Assembly (NCBI GenBank): GCA_029558435.1
Contig: JAKQEZ010000450.1
Span: 1 to 5,962, forward strand
From: Bacteroidota bacterium
GTDB lineage: Bacteria > Bacteroidota > Bacteroidia > Flavobacteriales > Crocinitomicaceae
Length of the DNA: 5,962 bases
Direction: 5' to 3'
Below the pieces are notes generated by a model. The model made no database searches. It was not told the origin of the DNA and saw nothing but the letters and a program-made list of their open reading frames with translations. Positions 871 through 5,955 of the stretch are shown here, piece by piece (the first letter of the stretch is position 1; the number at the start of each line of letters is the position of its first letter). Both the position numbers and the translations under genes were made by a program.

Positions 871-1629
871 ATGTCAAATAGAGCAGAATTTATCAAAGCA
901 GAATTAAAAAGAAAGACAGGAAATCAAGGTTTACTTTCTTTTGCAAATGGAATTAAAAACGTGATTGGTGCACGTGCGACAGGTTCAAATATTCGTTTGC
1001 GTTTAATCAATCAATGGGCAACAGACGTAGTAGTATTAATTGCGCCAAAAATGTTATTGGGTACATCAGACGGTGCAACAGCATTGGCAAGCGATTTAGG
1101 TTTACCAACTGGTATTCCTTTTTACACACCGTCATCAGCAGAAACTGGAGGTACGGGAAAAAACTTCACGATTGCTTCATTAGACCCAGCACAAAAATTG
1201 GCAATCATTGCTAGTCAGTTGAGCAACGAACCAACTCAAATCACAGGTATTTCAATGAAATCCTACACTACTGCTGGAATTCCAGAAAACACCAACTACG
1301 GAAACTCTTTAATCCATTATAGAGTAAGCCATTTGGAAGAAACAAAACGTTCTACACCGTTGAATTTCGATGCGTTCCAAAACTCAAAAGACGTTTCAAC
1401 TGAAATCTTGAAAATTGATTTGGTTAAAAACAACTTTATGGGGCTTGTTTCTCAAAAAGACGTGTTAGCAATTCAAATCAATGCTGGAACACGCATGGAT
1501 TTAACCTTACACATTGGCGCAAGAGCATCAATGGAAGAGTTTACATTCCGTGAAATTAAAGCTGGTGCAGAAGTATTGCGCGAACAATTTGGAAACGAAG
1601 AATTGTTTGACGGAAGTTGCAACTGTTAA
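871..1629 (+). CDS. Candidate major capsid protein (soluble, beta-rich, 252 aa)
   Basis: This is the only mid-sized soluble protein in the first two thirds of the window; nearly every neighbour is a single-pass membrane protein. The 252 residues show no signal peptide or membrane helix. They contain a basic N-terminal stretch, then many alternating hydrophobic/polar segments that look like beta strands (for example residues 40-57 around NIRLRLINQWATDVVVLIA, and 199-220 around LAIQINAGTRMDLTLHIGA), with Gly/Thr/Ser/Pro-rich loops between. The C-terminus ends in CNC. Size is close to the smallest double jelly-roll capsid proteins (PM2 P2 is in this range). A strong terminator follows directly, as expected for a gene needing separate high expression. 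The A-rich leader (AAAGAAA before ATG) is typical of Bacteroidota starts. The capsid role is inferred from context and composition; I cannot demonstrate a jelly-roll fold by eye. Another abundant virion protein, such as a penton, is the alternative. Confidence 0.5.
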   Translation: MSNRAEFIKAELKRKTGNQGLLSFANGIKNVIGARATGSNIRLRLINQWATDVVVLIAPKMLLGTSDGATALASDLGLPTGIPFYTPSSAETGGTGKNFTIASLDPAQKLAIIASQLSNEPTQITGISMKSYTTAGIPENTNYGNSLIHYRVSHLEETKRSTPLNFDAFQNSKDVSTEILKIDLVKNNFMGLVSQKDVLAIQINAGTRMDLTLHIGARASMEEFTFREIKAGAEVLREQFGNEELFDGSCNC

Positions 1630-1700: not shown

Positions 1701-1964
1701 ATGGCAGAAGAAACAAAAAACACCACCTCAAAAGAAACCTCAAAACAAATGAACACAGGTTGGGTGGGCACCTTAATTAACACGGTTGGCGATATGGCTA
1801 AAGGCTTTAATTATAAAGCGCAAGAAAACGAAATTGAATTAGCACGGTTACAAGCAGAATCTGCTAAAGCAACGCAACCAGCTCCACAAGACAACAAAAA
1901 AATGCTTTACATAGGCGTTGCCGTTGTTGTTGTTATAGTATTAATTGTCGCACTTAAAAAATAG
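1701..1964 (+). CDS. 87-residue C-terminally anchored membrane protein
   Basis: The N-terminal 18 residues are polar and Thr/Lys/Glu-rich. A probable amphipathic helix follows at about 20-57 (from GWVGTLINTVGDMAKGF through ENEIELARLQAESAK), then a Pro/Ala/Gln linker, and one very hydrophobic C-terminal helix at about 68-85 ending in LKK. The helix with its positively charged tail implies that the C-terminus faces the cytoplasm or virion interior and the N-terminal domain projects outward. The ATG lies 13 bases after the terminator stem, and the next gene starts 5 bases after this stop. It is probably a minor virion membrane protein, inferred from context. No family recognised. Confidence 0.75.
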   Translation: MAEETKNTTSKETSKQMNTGWVGTLINTVGDMAKGFNYKAQENEIELARLQAESAKATQPAPQDNKKMLYIGVAVVVVIVLIVALKK

Positions 1965-1969
1965 AACAA

Positions 1970-2563
1970 ATGACAGTAGAAGAGTACACACAGAGAAATA
2001 AGGACATACAAGAATCAATTACTAAATTACAGGCACAAGCAACGGCATTGCGCTCACAAGCTGGTTCAGCAGATACAAATTCGCAAGAATGGTTGAATAA
2101 TATTGGAAATTGCTCCAAAGGCACAAAATCACAAAAAGCCGCGTGTGAAAAGGATGCAGAATGGAAACGTCAAAAAGCGGCTTCATCCAAAGCAACTGCA
2201 AACGCATTACGTGAACAGGCAACTACTATTGAATCTAAAACAATTCCAGATTTGAGAAAAGAGTTTGACAACAACGTGAAAATGATTGCACAGGCTCAAC
2301 AATCATCAGCGGAGGTTGCAAAATTATTGGCTCAATCTGGAAAGACAGAACAATCCGTTGAAATTGAAAGCAATGCAAATGCAGAAGCAACAAAAACAAC
2401 CGCAGAAATAACCGCAAAGGCAAATGCACAAGCAATTCAAGCAAATGCACAAGCCGATGCAGACGGCAAAAAGAAAAGAAACATGATTTTTATGATCGTT
2501 GGAGCCGTTGTTGCTTTGGGAGCAATTATTTTCTTGATTAAAAAGTTTAAAAAGAAAGGGTAG
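1970..2563 (+). CDS. Ala-rich coiled-coil protein with C-terminal membrane anchor
   Basis: The 197 residues are dominated by Ala, Gln, Lys and Glu with heptad-like spacing at about 5-35 and 60-165, predicting a long helical coiled coil. Two cysteines (C48, C59) bracket a short Gly/Ser/Lys loop and could form a disulfide, which would suit an extracytoplasmic domain. The segment at about 136-165 is low in complexity (NANAEA, AKANAQA, IQANAQA). It includes a seven-residue tandem repeat visible in the DNA at 2420-2454. One membrane helix (about 171-190) ends with the very basic tail KKFKKKG. The helix plus basic tail matches the genes on both sides, so all may be inserted the same way. A stalk, fibre or membrane-scaffold role in the virion is plausible but unproven. 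Confidence 0.75.
   Translation: MTVEEYTQRNKDIQESITKLQAQATALRSQAGSADTNSQEWLNNIGNCSKGTKSQKAACEKDAEWKRQKAASSKATANALREQATTIESKTIPDLRKEFDNNVKMIAQAQQSSAEVAKLLAQSGKTEQSVEIESNANAEATKTTAEITAKANAQAIQANAQADADGKKKRNMIFMIVGAVVALGAIIFLIKKFKKKG
2420..2454 (+). repeat. Short in-frame direct repeat (21-base period)
   Basis: The 14-base word GCAAATGCACAAGC occurs at 2420-2433 and again at 2441-2454, offset by 21 bases, or exactly seven codons. At the protein level this gives AKANAQA then IQANAQA, one heptad repeated, so it looks like coiled-coil extension by slippage or tandem duplication. Confidence 0.6.
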
Positions 2564-2564
2564 T

Positions 2565-2762
2565 ATGAACGCAAAAACAGTTTCTGAACAAATGGCAGGT
2601 TATGTTATCAACGTAAACTTGCCCGATTGGAAGAGCCAATCACAAGAAAGCAAGAACGCTCAACAAGTAAAAGCAGACGAGTTAAAAAAACGTCAAATTA
2701 TTGTTGCTGGAGCTGTTTTGGCAGTTTTAATCGTCGCACTAATTTTTATCCGTAAAAAATGA
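2565..2762 (+). CDS. 65-residue C-terminally anchored membrane protein
   Basis: The polar N-terminal domain (residues 1-44) contains a short hydrophobic patch (AGYVINVNLPDW, 11-22) and a Gln/Lys/Ser-rich helix-like stretch. A single membrane helix at about 45-62 ends in IRKK. The ATG begins one base after the TAG of the preceding gene, and the final TGA overlaps the next ATG (ATGA, 2759-2762), so its translation is probably coupled on both sides. The membrane segment (AVLAVLIVALIFIRKK) resembles that of the 87-residue protein at 1701 (VVVIVLIVALKK). The two may be diverged paralogues, although hydrophobic helices converge easily. Probable minor virion membrane protein; no family recognised. 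Confidence 0.7.
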   Translation: MNAKTVSEQMAGYVINVNLPDWKSQSQESKNAQQVKADELKKRQIIVAGAVLAVLIVALIFIRKK

Positions 2763-2878
2763 ATCTTGAAACAGAAGTTAAATTAAACCAGCACAACTTA
2801 GTAATGATAGGTTTAACGGTTGCAATCGTTGCCACATTCATTGTTTTGGTTGTAAAAATATCAAAAAGAAATGCTTAA
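2759..2878 (+). CDS. 39-residue single-pass membrane protein
   Basis: ATG 2759 overlaps the TGA of the preceding gene in an ATGA, and the frame closes at TAA 2876-2878, eight bases inside the next gene. The product is MNLETEVKLNQHN, then a membrane helix at about 14-32 (LVMIGLTVAIVATFIVLVV), then the basic tail KISKRNA. Without it there would be a 108-base gap in an otherwise gapless operon. Overlaps at both ends and the same helix-plus-basic-tail pattern as its neighbours make it a real gene despite its size. It is probably a minor component of the virion membrane; no family recognised. Confidence 0.7.
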   Translation: MNLETEVKLNQHNLVMIGLTVAIVATFIVLVVKISKRNA

Positions 2879-3302
2879 CAACTTTAAAAAAGCAAGCCCA
2901 TTAATGCAAGTAACGGTAATTGTTATTGTACTTGTTTTAATTGTATTGGCGTTAAAATTTTTTCGTTCATTTTTAGAAAATTCCAAAATCAAAAGCGAAA
3001 GTTTGGGCGAAGAATTGGCACTAGAAGCGCAAGGAGTACAACAAAGCTACTCAACAGCAAAATACAAACAATTTGCCAATAAACTTTATGTAGCATTTGA
3101 CGGAATGGGAACAGACGAAAACGCAGTTTATTCTGTTTTTGGACAAATGAACAACGATTTGGACATCATAAAGCTAAACACGGCTTTTGGAATTAAAGAA
3201 GAAACGGATTTAACGGGGTGGATTCTTTCAGAATTATCCAGCTCCGAGTTAATGAAGCTAAACAACATTCTTGCAAACAAAGGAATCAATCACCAATACT
3301 AA
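2871..3302 (+). CDS. Membrane-anchored protein with an annexin-repeat-like domain
   Basis: The 143 residues comprise a short basic start, one membrane helix at about 13-31, a linker at 32-60, and a globular helical domain at about 64-140. That domain reads like a single annexin repeat. KLYVAFDGMGTDENAVYSVF (71-90) parallels the annexin KAMKGLGTDEDAI-type motif, and LSELSS (119-124) parallels the annexin LKSELSG. In annexins a type II calcium site uses the GxGT backbone plus an acidic residue about 40 positions later. Here GMGT is 78-81 and E121 lies 40 after T81, so the ligand pattern is preserved. The domain would lie outside the membrane. It overlaps the 39-residue gene by 8 bases and sits 3 bases before the next. 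Role unknown; calcium- or lipid-dependent adhesion to membrane is a hypothesis. Resemblance was judged by eye. Confidence 0.75.
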   Translation: MLNNFKKASPLMQVTVIVIVLVLIVLALKFFRSFLENSKIKSESLGEELALEAQGVQQSYSTAKYKQFANKLYVAFDGMGTDENAVYSVFGQMNNDLDIIKLNTAFGIKEETDLTGWILSELSSSELMKLNNILANKGINHQY

Positions 3303-3305
3303 AAA

Positions 3306-3548
3306 ATGAACACAGACTTATTAAATATTTTAACTCCGTTTGCTTCGGCTGGTTTAACGTGGTTTTTAGCTCGCAGAAAATACCGTGCAGAAAGCAAGGC
3401 AAATGAATTGGAAAACGTGGAAAAAGCTATTTCAATTTGGAAAAATTTGGCTATGGACTTGAAAAAGGAAGTTGAGCAATTGAAAACGGAATTAATTGAA
3501 CACAAACAACAAATTGACAATTTAAGAAAACTCGTAAAAGCAAAATGA
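3306..3548 (+). CDS. 80-residue N-terminally anchored coiled-coil protein
   Basis: A hydrophobic segment at about 4-22 (DLLNILTPFASAGLTWFLA) is followed by a basic RRKYR stop-transfer cluster and a long charged helix at about 33-78 (NELENVEKAISIWKNL through DNLRKLVKAK) with coiled-coil heptads. The positive cluster after the helix implies a cytoplasmic or virion-interior coil. It resembles small proteins of this layout that I recall near lysis genes in Bacteroidota phages, but I cannot assign a family. The TGA overlaps the muramidase ATG (ATGA, 3545-3548), tying its expression to that gene. It may be a partner or regulator of the lytic enzyme, a holin-like protein, or a virion membrane protein. 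Confidence 0.7.
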   Translation: MNTDLLNILTPFASAGLTWFLARRKYRAESKANELENVEKAISIWKNLAMDLKKEVEQLKTELIEHKQQIDNLRKLVKAK

Positions 3549-4219
3549 AAAACATTGATTTAAAAACGGTTGCTATTGTTCTAGCTATTTCAATAGCGGT
3601 TGTTTTTGTTGGTCAATATTTAATGAATAAATTTTTAAACGTGATGTTATTATCCAAATTAGTACCATTTATGAAAAAATGGGAGGGAGGTTTATCCCGA
3701 GATCCAAATGATACGGCTTCTAGTTATCCAGCTCCATGGACATATAAAGGCGTTACAGGTTGGCACACCAATAAAGGGATAACTTATAAAGCATTTGTTT
3801 CAAATGCTCAAAAATTAGGATACGCACCCACGGCAGAAAATTTTTTCAATATGCCCGATGATATTTGGCTAAAAATACTCAAAGGCTCTTATATGGCTTC
3901 TTTTCCTCTCAATAAAATTTCTCACTTGCCACGTATTCAAGCCGTCATTATTTCGTGGTCATGGGGTTCTGGCGTGGCAGGTGCAGAAAGATATTTAGCA
4001 AACTTTCAACGTGAAGAAATGGGAATAAAAGACAGCAATATTACTAAGGAGGAAATCATCAAAAACTTTGCTTTGCGCGTCAACCCCCTAAATGAGTTAG
4101 ACTGGTTTAACAAATTATGTGATAGACGTTTAGAAGATTTTAAAAAAATGGCAACATGGAACGTTCACGGCAAAGGGTGGACAAACAGATTAAACGAATT
4201 TAGAACAATTTTATCTTAA
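3545..4219 (+). CDS. Membrane-anchored GH108-type peptidoglycan muramidase
   Basis: The 224-residue enzyme has one N-terminal membrane helix (about 8-24). The catalytic domain opens with LVPFMKKWEGGLSRDP (39-54), the GH108 signature in which the Glu of EGG (E47) is the presumed catalytic acid. THE conserved TNKGIT follows at 75-80, with an internal stretch (about 57-74, PAPWTYKGVTGWH) longer than the spacing I recall for typical GH108 proteins. A WSWGSG core helix motif (138-143) is next. The C-terminal part (187-219, WFNKLCDRRLEDF, KGWTNRLNEF) matches the peptidoglycan-binding-like half usual in this family. It should cleave the glycan strand of murein on the outer face of the inner membrane. 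Permanent anchoring without a cleavable signal fits either a virion membrane protein that drills through murein on entry, or an endolysin held at the membrane. It overlaps the coiled-coil gene by 4 bases and is followed by a murein-binding gene. Confidence 0.85.
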   Translation: MKNIDLKTVAIVLAISIAVVFVGQYLMNKFLNVMLLSKLVPFMKKWEGGLSRDPNDTASSYPAPWTYKGVTGWHTNKGITYKAFVSNAQKLGYAPTAENFFNMPDDIWLKILKGSYMASFPLNKISHLPRIQAVIISWSWGSGVAGAERYLANFQREEMGIKDSNITKEEIIKNFALRVNPLNELDWFNKLCDRRLEDFKKMATWNVHGKGWTNRLNEFRTILS

Positions 4220-4224
4220 AAAAA

Positions 4225-4605
4225 ATGAAAAAAATCAGCACACCAACAAAAATTTTGATTGCCGTAATAATATTGGTTATCATTATTGTTGTTATCCGTA
4301 AAAAGCGAGCTAAACAAGCCGAGGAAACAACCATTAAAACACCTAATAAAGCAGTTACTGGCATTACCACCAAACCAGCTTTGATTTGCGAAAATACAAC
4401 ACCGTTAAAAAAAGGTAGTAAATGCGACAGAGTAGAATGGGCGCAGTATGAAATCAACAAGGTTGCAAGCAAAATTGGTATTGCAAAACTTGCACAAGAC
4501 GGAATTTTCGGAACAAAAACAGAAGCTGCATTTAAAAAATTGTTGGGCAAAACATCAGCAAGTTATGCAGAAGTAAGAAATAAAGTAGCAGAAATTAACA
4601 GTTAA
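4225..4605 (+). CDS. Membrane-anchored peptidoglycan-binding-domain protein
   Basis: The 126 residues have a basic N-terminus, one membrane helix at about 9-24, a strongly basic RKKRAK cluster, a Thr/Lys-rich linker (32-52), and a C-terminal domain at about 55-122. That domain carries the hallmarks of the PG_binding_1 fold: PLKKGSKCDRVEWAQYEIN (60-78) matches the usual LKKGSKGxxVxxLQxxLN start, and DGIFGTKTEAAFKKLL (92-107) matches the family's DGIFGpkTeaAv core. Cys55 and Cys67 could pair at the domain's base. It starts 5 bases after the muramidase stop, so catalytic and murein-binding functions sit in adjacent genes, each with its own anchor. Likely a virion or lysis component that holds the membrane to murein. 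Confidence 0.8.
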   Translation: MKKISTPTKILIAVIILVIIIVVIRKKRAKQAEETTIKTPNKAVTGITTKPALICENTTPLKKGSKCDRVEWAQYEINKVASKIGIAKLAQDGIFGTKTEAAFKKLLGKTSASYAEVRNKVAEINS

Positions 4606-4607
4606 AA

Positions 4608-4838
4608 ATGAAGACACAGACAAAATACATTATTGGCGCAGTTGCTTTGGTAGCAGTTGTTGCCGTTGTTTATTTCTTATTGAAAAAGAAAAAAGAAACA
4701 GGAAGTTTTAACCCCCTTGCAAAATCAACCATTCCAGCAGAAGTGTTGGCAGAACCCGTTGAAGATTGGGAGGGCGAAGTATTAGAATTTCAAGGGGTGA
4801 AATATACACCAGTTAACGGAGTGTGGCAAACAGTTTAA
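4608..4838 (+). CDS. 76-residue N-terminally anchored membrane protein
   Basis: A membrane helix at about 8-25 is followed by a run of lysines (KKKK, 26-29), a Pro/Ala-rich linker, and a short acidic then beta-like C-terminus (DWEGEVLEFQGVKYTPVNGVWQTV), which may fold as a small beta hairpin. The start lies 2 bases after the preceding TAA. The Lys run directly after the helix predicts that this small domain faces the cytoplasm or virion interior. It sits between the murein-binding gene and the spike candidate; a virion membrane role is likely from context only. No family recognised. Confidence 0.7.
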   Translation: MKTQTKYIIGAVALVAVVAVVYFLLKKKKETGSFNPLAKSTIPAEVLAEPVEDWEGEVLEFQGVKYTPVNGVWQTV

Positions 4839-4848
4839 AAAAAGTAGT

Positions 4849-5955
4849 ATGTTTAGAGAATTTGAAGAAAAAGCAAAAAAAGCAAGAACGGCGCAACAAC
4901 CAACCCCAGCACCTACTATTGGAGCTGGTGGACGCAACCCAATGAGTGGTCCAATAGTATTACCTCCATTACGTCCAGCTCCAGCTCCAGCACTTCAAAG
5001 TAGCATTAAAAGAATACACAATTTATTAGCTACAATGTGGGGGAGTGTAAGTATTGGCGTTAGTTTTTCCAATATATCCACCGAGGTAATGGAGAAGGTT
5101 TTTAGAAAAACAGATTTAGTAGGCTATGAACAGAGATTAGCCGGGCTTGTTAAACAGGTTTCTTTTTTAAACGGAATATTTTTAGCGTGTACACAAACAG
5201 GGCTTTATACTTCTCCAGACGGTTATAATTGGACACAAAGACAATCTGGAATTGTAAAGGTTTTATTTGAAAAAGGCGTTTTTGTAGCGATTGGAGTTGC
5301 TGGAACATTCACTTCAACGGACGGTATAGCATGGACTCACAGCTGGTCAGATGGATCTGTATATGATGTGGTTTATTCAGCGGATTTGGGAATGTTTGTT
5401 AAAACAACTTTTCATTCACAAGGGGTATATACATCTTTAGACGGCACTAATTGGACACAAAGACAATCTGGAATTTTTTTTAAAGTTGTGTTTGGAAATG
5501 GCGTTTTTGTAGCGGCGGGAACATCGGGAGTTTATTCATCAACTGACGGCATCACATGGAACCAAACCTCCACAGATTCTATTAACGACATTTGTTTTGG
5601 TAACGGGATGTTTATGACAACATCAATCAGCACCGCCAAAACATATAGGTCCACAAACGGAATCACATGGACTGAAACTTTATCAACAGGAACACTCCGT
5701 TTCCACCTTGCAATAGGAAGGATTGTGATGTTCAACCCATCCATTAATTCAATACATTATACAATAAATGGTGATTCCTGGACAACAATAGAAGCGGCAA
5801 ATATTATAACCCAAATCTTTGGAACTGATGATTTATTCGTGGTTAAAAATGAATTAGATACCGCCTTTACAACAGACTTTAAAACGTGGACAATTGTTCC
5901 AGACGACTATATCATTACATTATTAACCGTTCCACGCTCGGAGTTAAATGTATAG
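4849..5955 (+). CDS. Seven-repeat Asp-box beta-propeller protein, candidate spike or receptor-binding protein
   Basis: The 368 residues have no membrane helix. Residues 1-16 form a charged helix, 17-50 a Pro/Ala/Gly-rich linker (LPPLRPAPAPAL), and about 51-100 a connecting region. From about 101 to the end there are seven repeats of 34-40 residues. Each is centred on an Asp-box-like S-x-D-G-x-x-W: 122-128, 156-162, 196-202, 231-237, 268-274, and degenerate copies at 305-311 (TINGDSW) and 341-347 (TTDFKTW). Blades also share a GxFVAxG strand and an xGxYTS strand. Seven such units suggest a seven-bladed propeller like BNR/sialidase-type folds, though no sialidase active-site arginines are evident. 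Such folds often bind glycans. As the only other soluble protein in the module it is a good spike candidate, the N-terminal part attaching it to the capsid. Function inferred. Confidence 0.7.
   Translation: MFREFEEKAKKARTAQQPTPAPTIGAGGRNPMSGPIVLPPLRPAPAPALQSSIKRIHNLLATMWGSVSIGVSFSNISTEVMEKVFRKTDLVGYEQRLAGLVKQVSFLNGIFLACTQTGLYTSPDGYNWTQRQSGIVKVLFEKGVFVAIGVAGTFTSTDGIAWTHSWSDGSVYDVVYSADLGMFVKTTFHSQGVYTSLDGTNWTQRQSGIFFKVVFGNGVFVAAGTSGVYSSTDGITWNQTSTDSINDICFGNGMFMTTSISTAKTYRSTNGITWTETLSTGTLRFHLAIGRIVMFNPSINSIHYTINGDSWTTIEAANIITQIFGTDDLFVVKNELDTAFTTDFKTWTIVPDDYIITLLTVPRSELNV
5226..5475 (+). repeat. 28-base identical direct repeat inside the propeller gene
   Basis: Positions 5226-5253 and 5448-5475 are identical over 28 bases and encode the same NWTQRQSGI. 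The copies are 222 bases (74 codons, two blades) apart, so blades 1 and 3 share DNA identity while the intervening blade differs. This indicates a recent two-blade duplication or gene conversion within the gene. Confidence 0.85.

Follow-up and report, generated by a model that had tools for sequence, protein, structure and literature searches.

What is an annexin-like gene doing in a small phage-type cassette, and is the repeat that it encodes a genuine one? In eukaryotes, membrane contact under calcium control depends centrally on annexins, and the annexin repeat is the building block of animal and plant proteins that stick to membranes when calcium is present. To our knowledge, no viral annexin was known before. 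The stretch of DNA analysed here (the window, 5,962 nucleotides) carries a gene that an initial annotation had described as an annexin-like repeat with an apparently intact calcium site on a phage membrane protein. Its features are as follows.

2871..3302, + strand: transmembrane (TM)-anchored single-repeat annexin-like protein (open reading frame with ATG start, 143 aa; relatives; structure model)
2904..2963, + strand: predicted TM helix, about residues 12-31 (hydropathy; structure model)
3048..3293, + strand: annexin repeat, residues 60-141 (structure model; residues 56-141 aligned to annexin repeats)
3102..3119, + strand: GMGTDE, AB loop of the putative type II calcium site, residues 78-83 (sequence; family conservation)
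3231..3233, + strand: E121, DE-loop acid of the same putative calcium site (family conservation)

Annexin fold and homology

N-terminal to the annexin-like domain, a stretch of 19 residues beginning at residue 10 is hydrophobic (Kyte-Doolittle 2.93). In the predicted model of the 143-aa protein, the TM helix runs on to residue 53 as a single long helix (residues 10-53), with a pLDDT of 67-81 over residues 1-50 and of 92-97 from residue 51 onward. The latter part contains the five-helix annexin repeat fold (A 62-76, B 83-91, C 96-106, D 114-121 and E 124-136), as seen in a predicted model and not in a solved structure. Aligned to annexin structures, this model matches annexin repeats, as the initial annotation had anticipated, with a sequence identity of 12-28 percent to eukaryotic annexins among the 50 structure matches listed.

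With regard to sequence, a phmmer search of the PDB with the window protein retrieved 45 distinct sequences at E<=10, every one an annexin or an annexin fusion. Annexin VI reached a whole-sequence E of 1.1e-11 (summed over repeats), and the best single-repeat i-E among the five alignments listed was 0.0074, with annexin XII. In these alignments E121 pairs with the annexin DE-loop acid, namely the D of KNDTSG in annexin VI and the E of ISETSG in annexin XII. The family comprises 125 members, of which 120 are listed, the window protein included, and 78 of the 120 form the profile alignment. The resulting 78-member profile matches annexins at E 3.2e-33. Scored alone against the Pfam Annexin model (PF00191), the window protein obtains 16.4 bits (cut-off 25) and is not among the 28 of 78 family members that match at E<=0.01, and a relative in locus L012 obtains 25.1 bits (cut-off 25); the precomputed PF00191 assignment covers 18 of the 120 listed clusters, or 17 without the three-repeat protein P0120.

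The possibility of a mere chance motif was ruled out, because the whole domain matches annexins in sequence and predicted fold, and because the match persists, in a non-independent sample, when the loop is masked. With GxGTDE masked, the domain profile still matches annexin-domain proteins of fetched loci, in L005 (E 5.5e-7), whose protein scores above the Pfam cut-off, and in L015 (1.5e-8), and it matches the Corallococcus proteins of L019 and L020 only at E 0.0028; this control is not independent, since the loci had been fetched by their likeness to the annexin-like family. Judged from sequence and model together, the window gene almost certainly encodes an annexin repeat by homology.

The protein consists of one repeat, and the four- or eight-repeat core of eukaryotic-type annexins is absent. 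It resembles eukaryotic annexins (PF00191, e.g. annexins VI and XII) in its five-helix repeat, its GxGT loop with a distant acid and its hydrophobic tip, whereas they have four or eight repeats and it has one repeat and a TM anchor. This contrast, drawn in the initial annotation, stands but is less unusual than claimed, since single-repeat and membrane-helix annexins have already been reported in bacteria (PMC3894181). The bacterial single-domain annexins of the Cytophaga hutchinsonii type likewise carry one GxGTD repeat, some have predicted membrane helices, and Bacteroidetes are among their hosts (Kodavali et al. 2014, PMC3894181). By the definition given there (a single GxGTD repeat, a prokaryotic replicon, an optional TM helix), the window protein belongs among them. 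What is new is the virus setting of a known domain, since bacterial annexins are on record and no report of a viral one was found: the 2014 survey reports no annexins in Archaea or viruses (PMC3894181), and the titles and abstract starts of the literature searched, with most subscription papers outside its scope, report no viral or phage annexin. The supplementary list of PMC10311354 includes bacterial annexins and an archaeal annexin, and no word beginning with phage occurs in that paper. The word annexin is absent from the main text of Yutin et al. 2018 (PMC5894146) and of the PhiCjT23 structure paper (PMC9719478).

Conservation of the putative calcium site

The initial annotation had placed GMGTDE at residues 78-83 and an acid at E121, and both were confirmed; E121 lies 40 residues after T81, in agreement with the type II pattern of GxGT followed by D or E about 38-40 residues further on. 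The anticipated conservation of these residues among homologues was also found: among the 120 members, G78 is kept in 102, G80 in 107, T81 in 112, D82 in 102 and E83 in 107, and position 121 is acidic in 108 (E in 71, D in 37). According to the 2014 survey, the DE-turn Glu is less conserved in bacteria (PMC3894181), in contrast to this family, whose window member is moreover encoded within a phage cassette. The acid at position 121 stands out: 90 percent of rows are acidic there, against just 0-20 percent in each of the remaining columns between 118 and 125. E126 is likewise acidic in 92 percent of rows, and residues outside the site are equally conserved (D98, G107 and N131 in 114 each, E126 in 105, of 120).

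The spacing from T to the acid is 40 in 67 of the 96 members having both, and longer where a loop is inserted. Of the 97 members with a full GxGT, 81 have one of V, I, L, M, F, W and Y between the two glycines (M79 here), and we take this position to be the one meeting the membrane in annexins. Most bacterial annexin domains retain a hydrophobic residue at this place (PMC3894181).

Loop and acid also go together. Over all 120 rows, the acid is kept in 96 of 97 members with the full GxGT and in 12 of 23 without it. After four rows were dropped (P0109, a fusion or fragment; P0118, a fragment; P0119, divergent; P0120, a three-repeat annexin), the counts became 95/95 and 12/21. Each of the 12 members that retain the acid without GxGT is about one letter away from this motif. 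The Fisher p of 4e-8 for the co-occurrence is not independent evidence and reflects a small number of loss events, since the nine members that lost both elements sit in one or two clades of a tree built on 88 columns only, with many unresolved forks. We consider that the window protein probably binds calcium.

The phage cassette and its relatives

The other genes of the window are listed below.

135-638: 167 aa, N-terminus resembling that of a lipoprotein (LLMLSCSP), TM helix at the C-terminus, spanin-like in layout (by eye)
871..1629, + strand: major capsid protein candidate, jelly-roll-like, 252 aa (low-confidence model)
1701..1964, + strand: 87-aa protein with a C-terminal TM helix, directly 3' of the capsid candidate (open reading frame, hydropathy)
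1970..2563, + strand: 197-aa protein with a C-terminal TM helix (open reading frame, hydropathy)
2565..2762, + strand: 65-aa one-TM protein, helix at the C-terminus (open reading frame, hydropathy)
2759..2878, + strand: 39-aa miniprotein with one TM helix, its gene sharing 8 nt with the start of the annexin gene (translation, hydropathy 2.98)
3306..3548, + strand: 80-aa protein, weakly hydrophobic at the N-terminus, its charged tail resembling a coiled coil (by eye)
3545..4219, + strand: GH108 lysozyme with an N-terminal TM helix (PF05838 28.8 bits, cut-off 21.2; phrog_315 endolysin E 1e-10)
4225..4605, + strand: TM protein with a peptidoglycan-binding-like C-terminus (phrog_2649 endolysin E 5.7e-4)
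4608..4838, + strand: 76-aa one-TM protein (open reading frame, hydropathy)
4849-5955: 368-aa protein with repeated TSTDGxxWT-like units, possibly a beta-propeller spike or receptor-binding protein

The last of these matches nothing in Pfam above cut-off, nor any PHROG below E 0.1. BLAST links the 4225..4605 protein to relatives in L014 (E 1.9e-9) and in L007 (E 1.4e-4). The layout of the 135-638 protein is that of a unimolecular spanin; lookalikes were noticed by eye at L012 10527-11087 and L021 9885-10274, and BLAST gave no link to the former.

The capsid candidate has no relatives in the phage collection or in IMG/VR. Profile comparisons with the capsid proteins or candidates of FLiP (gp8), PhiCjT23, L012 and L013 were all weak, with no profile link to FLiP gp8. 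Its alignment found two unrelated matches only among PDB sequences (E 0.099 and 0.25), none in seven records (holders of annexin relatives, or FLiP or PhiCjT23), and none in the sampled genomes, 395 of one phylum and 395 of one order. The FLiP major capsid protein (MCP) had no match in 395 genomes of one phylum; its single match in 296 genomes of one order fell inside a 1249-aa frame and was set aside. The capsid candidates of L012 and L013 share, by eye, a C-terminal pattern with that of the window.

Among 22 fetched loci, open reading frames were listed for seven (L006, L007, L012, L013, L014, L021 and L022), and in six of these the short TM-type relative stands amid many small TM-type proteins; several of the other 15 loci have the annexin-like domain within longer proteins. 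The ATPases encoded in L012 and L013 match Pox_A32 weakly (E 0.001, below cut-off); L013 also has an integrase that passes its cut-off, and in L014 an M23 peptidase gene lies near the annexin-like relative. The phage collection gave no match at E<=1 for any of six queries (the window protein, P0002, P0004, P0084, P0112 and P0089). The longest contig carrying the window's annexin-like protein has 9011 nt, about 3 kb of which lie outside the window.

In four loci (L007, L012, L013 and L022), an HExxH (zincin-like) protein was seen by eye to be encoded upstream of the annexin-TM gene, at a distance of up to about 3.2 kb; only that of L012 passes Pfam M78, and none was seen among the window open reading frames. 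Two IMG/VR contigs show domain fusions. At L006 4301-5125, an annexin-like domain (GMGTDE; profile E 5.5e-5) is joined to a phage lysozyme domain (PF00959, 43.8 bits), and at L011 9-1712 a peptidoglycan-binding domain and an annexin-like repeat occur in one protein, with a second annexin-like reading frame downstream (2474-3307).

This context points very probably to a tailless membrane phage as the source. The description as a phage membrane protein is well supported by context in so far as it means a phage gene for a membrane protein; a place in the virion leans on a weak match to FLiP gp11. Three characterised phages only (FLiP, PhiCjT23 and PM2) were scanned with the annexin-like profile. 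Gp11 of Flavobacterium phage FLiP (Finnlakeviridae) is, like the window protein, a small protein (158 aa) with an N-terminal TM helix, and its gene likewise lies between an upstream capsid gene and a downstream lytic enzyme gene. It was matched at E 2e-5 among 1777 open reading frames and at E 1.9e-6 in the FLiP record alone, with an hhalign probability of 83.5, and its 21.1 bits were reached by none of 2000 shuffles of its C-terminal part (best 16.6). However, gp11 differs in that GxGT is absent and the domain-only profile does not match it significantly (E 0.38), so that the homology link between the two sequences is just suggestive. Table 1 of PMC13269007 lists gp11 as a structural protein and the lytic enzyme gp14 as itself a virion protein. 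In IMG/VR, FLiP gp11 and the FLiP MCP retrieved nothing but one 9174-nt record, whose copies of these two genes are identical to those of FLiP.

The PhiCjT23 and PM2 records contain no match to the annexin-like profile. PhiCjT23 gp12 has a diffuse 13.4-bit score with no single stretch passing, and profile comparison supports neither it nor PM2 P6 as a homologue. PM2 (Corticoviridae) offers a parallel of another kind: its virion has an internal membrane, and P3 and P6 are small TM proteins, like the window protein, although no homology was found (PM2 record scan; P6 profile comparison). P3 and P6 are believed to serve as a template that brings the capsomers into register on the membrane, and PM2 itself to lose its capsid and have its membrane fuse with the outer membrane of the host (PMC6356626). 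By analogy with FLiP gp11, the window protein is itself probably a virion protein.

Possible roles of the protein

The reading towards which we lean, with moderate confidence, is a single annexin repeat with an intact putative type II calcium site and one N-terminal TM anchor, encoded among the structural and entry/lysis genes of a small tailless Bacteroidota phage with an internal membrane (FLiP/PM2-like build). Its likeliest place would be the virion membrane, comparable to that of FLiP gp11 or PM2 P3/P6, with the repeat between membrane and capsid or exposed upon capsid opening. During assembly in the calcium-poor cytoplasm the site would be empty, and in the calcium-rich outside it would fill. 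Tipped by a hydrophobic residue (M79 here; in most members V, L, W, Y, M, F or I), the AB loop could then push onto an acidic lipid surface, either the phage's own membrane, thereby clamping it to the capsid, or, upon entry, the outer membrane of the host. An annexin repeat with a TM anchor would be suited to either PM2-type job, capsomer registration or outer-membrane fusion. That the window protein acts by calcium-dependent membrane contact is advanced tentatively. The roles in docking, curvature or fusion suggested in the initial annotation are hypotheses of the same kind.

A rival reading is a structural linker only, in which the annexin fold serves protein-protein contact, e.g. capsomer registration as for PM2 P3 and P6, and the calcium site is incidental or purely structural. 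FLiP gp11, a possible relative known from virions, lacks GxGT, as do 21 of 116 members with regard to the full motif, the PM2 proteins are thought to act in this way (PMC6356626), and residues outside the site are as conserved as those within it. Yet most members retain loop, distant acid and hydrophobic tip, and, a single one of the 120 aside, loss of the acid is confined to members with an altered loop; we regard a linker alone as rather unlikely.

A partner in lysis or peptidoglycan processing would act in the host envelope late in infection instead of in the virion, its periplasmic repeat gripping the membrane near the lysozyme. One small gene separates the annexin-like gene from the TM lysozyme gene (3545), the peptidoglycan-binding-like TM protein is encoded nearby (4225), and the fusions in L006 and L011, the M23 peptidase gene of L014 and, by eye only, hydrolase-like genes near the L021 and L036 relatives fit the same idea. 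Closeness to a lysozyme nevertheless fails to separate a lysis role from a virion role, since FLiP gp14 is itself found in the virion (PMC13269007, Table 1), and the window already has, by eye, a gene with a spanin-like layout at 135-638; this explanation is improbable. A host bacterial annexin on a mobile element or an ordinary chromosome segment is highly improbable: bacterial single-domain and TM annexins do exist (PMC3894181), matches occur in 7 of the 395 genomes sampled from one phylum (one, G002, chosen as a known holder), and IMG/VR relatives are few (the first alignment found 11 loci, one of four sub-family alignments found two, and the other three found none), but the window holds a phage-type operon, no contig with the window's annexin-like protein exceeds the 9011 nt given above, and in L013 a relative, the ATPase with its weak likeness to A32, a protein that looks capsid-like by eye only, and the integrase all lie within 16 kb.

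Returning to the virion-membrane reading, its broadest form would have Bacteroidota membrane phages carry virion annexins as calcium switches, off in the cell at assembly and on outside, docking the virion membrane to the host outer membrane and helping fusion. We consider this general form quite unlikely; if true, it would provide the first viral annexin known to us and a candidate calcium-dependent entry step like that of PM2, for which Cvirkaite-Krupovic is said to have reported calcium-dependent entry in 2010. The annexin-like protein also offers a component that can be tested for its part in holding, or fusing, the internal membrane of such phages. More generally, a large family with a conserved site, of which some members at least occur in small membrane phages and proviruses, constitutes a reservoir of single repeats, in which one can ask whether a single repeat alone can bind calcium and membrane.

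Other arrangements of the domain were also noticed. An Oligoflexia protein (L015 3588-5348) combines an annexin repeat (24.9 bits, cut-off 25) with an OmpA domain. Tandem pairs of annexin-like TM proteins occur at L012 7866-8791 and L036 1474-2391, and the second protein of the former pair and both of the latter depart from GxGT.
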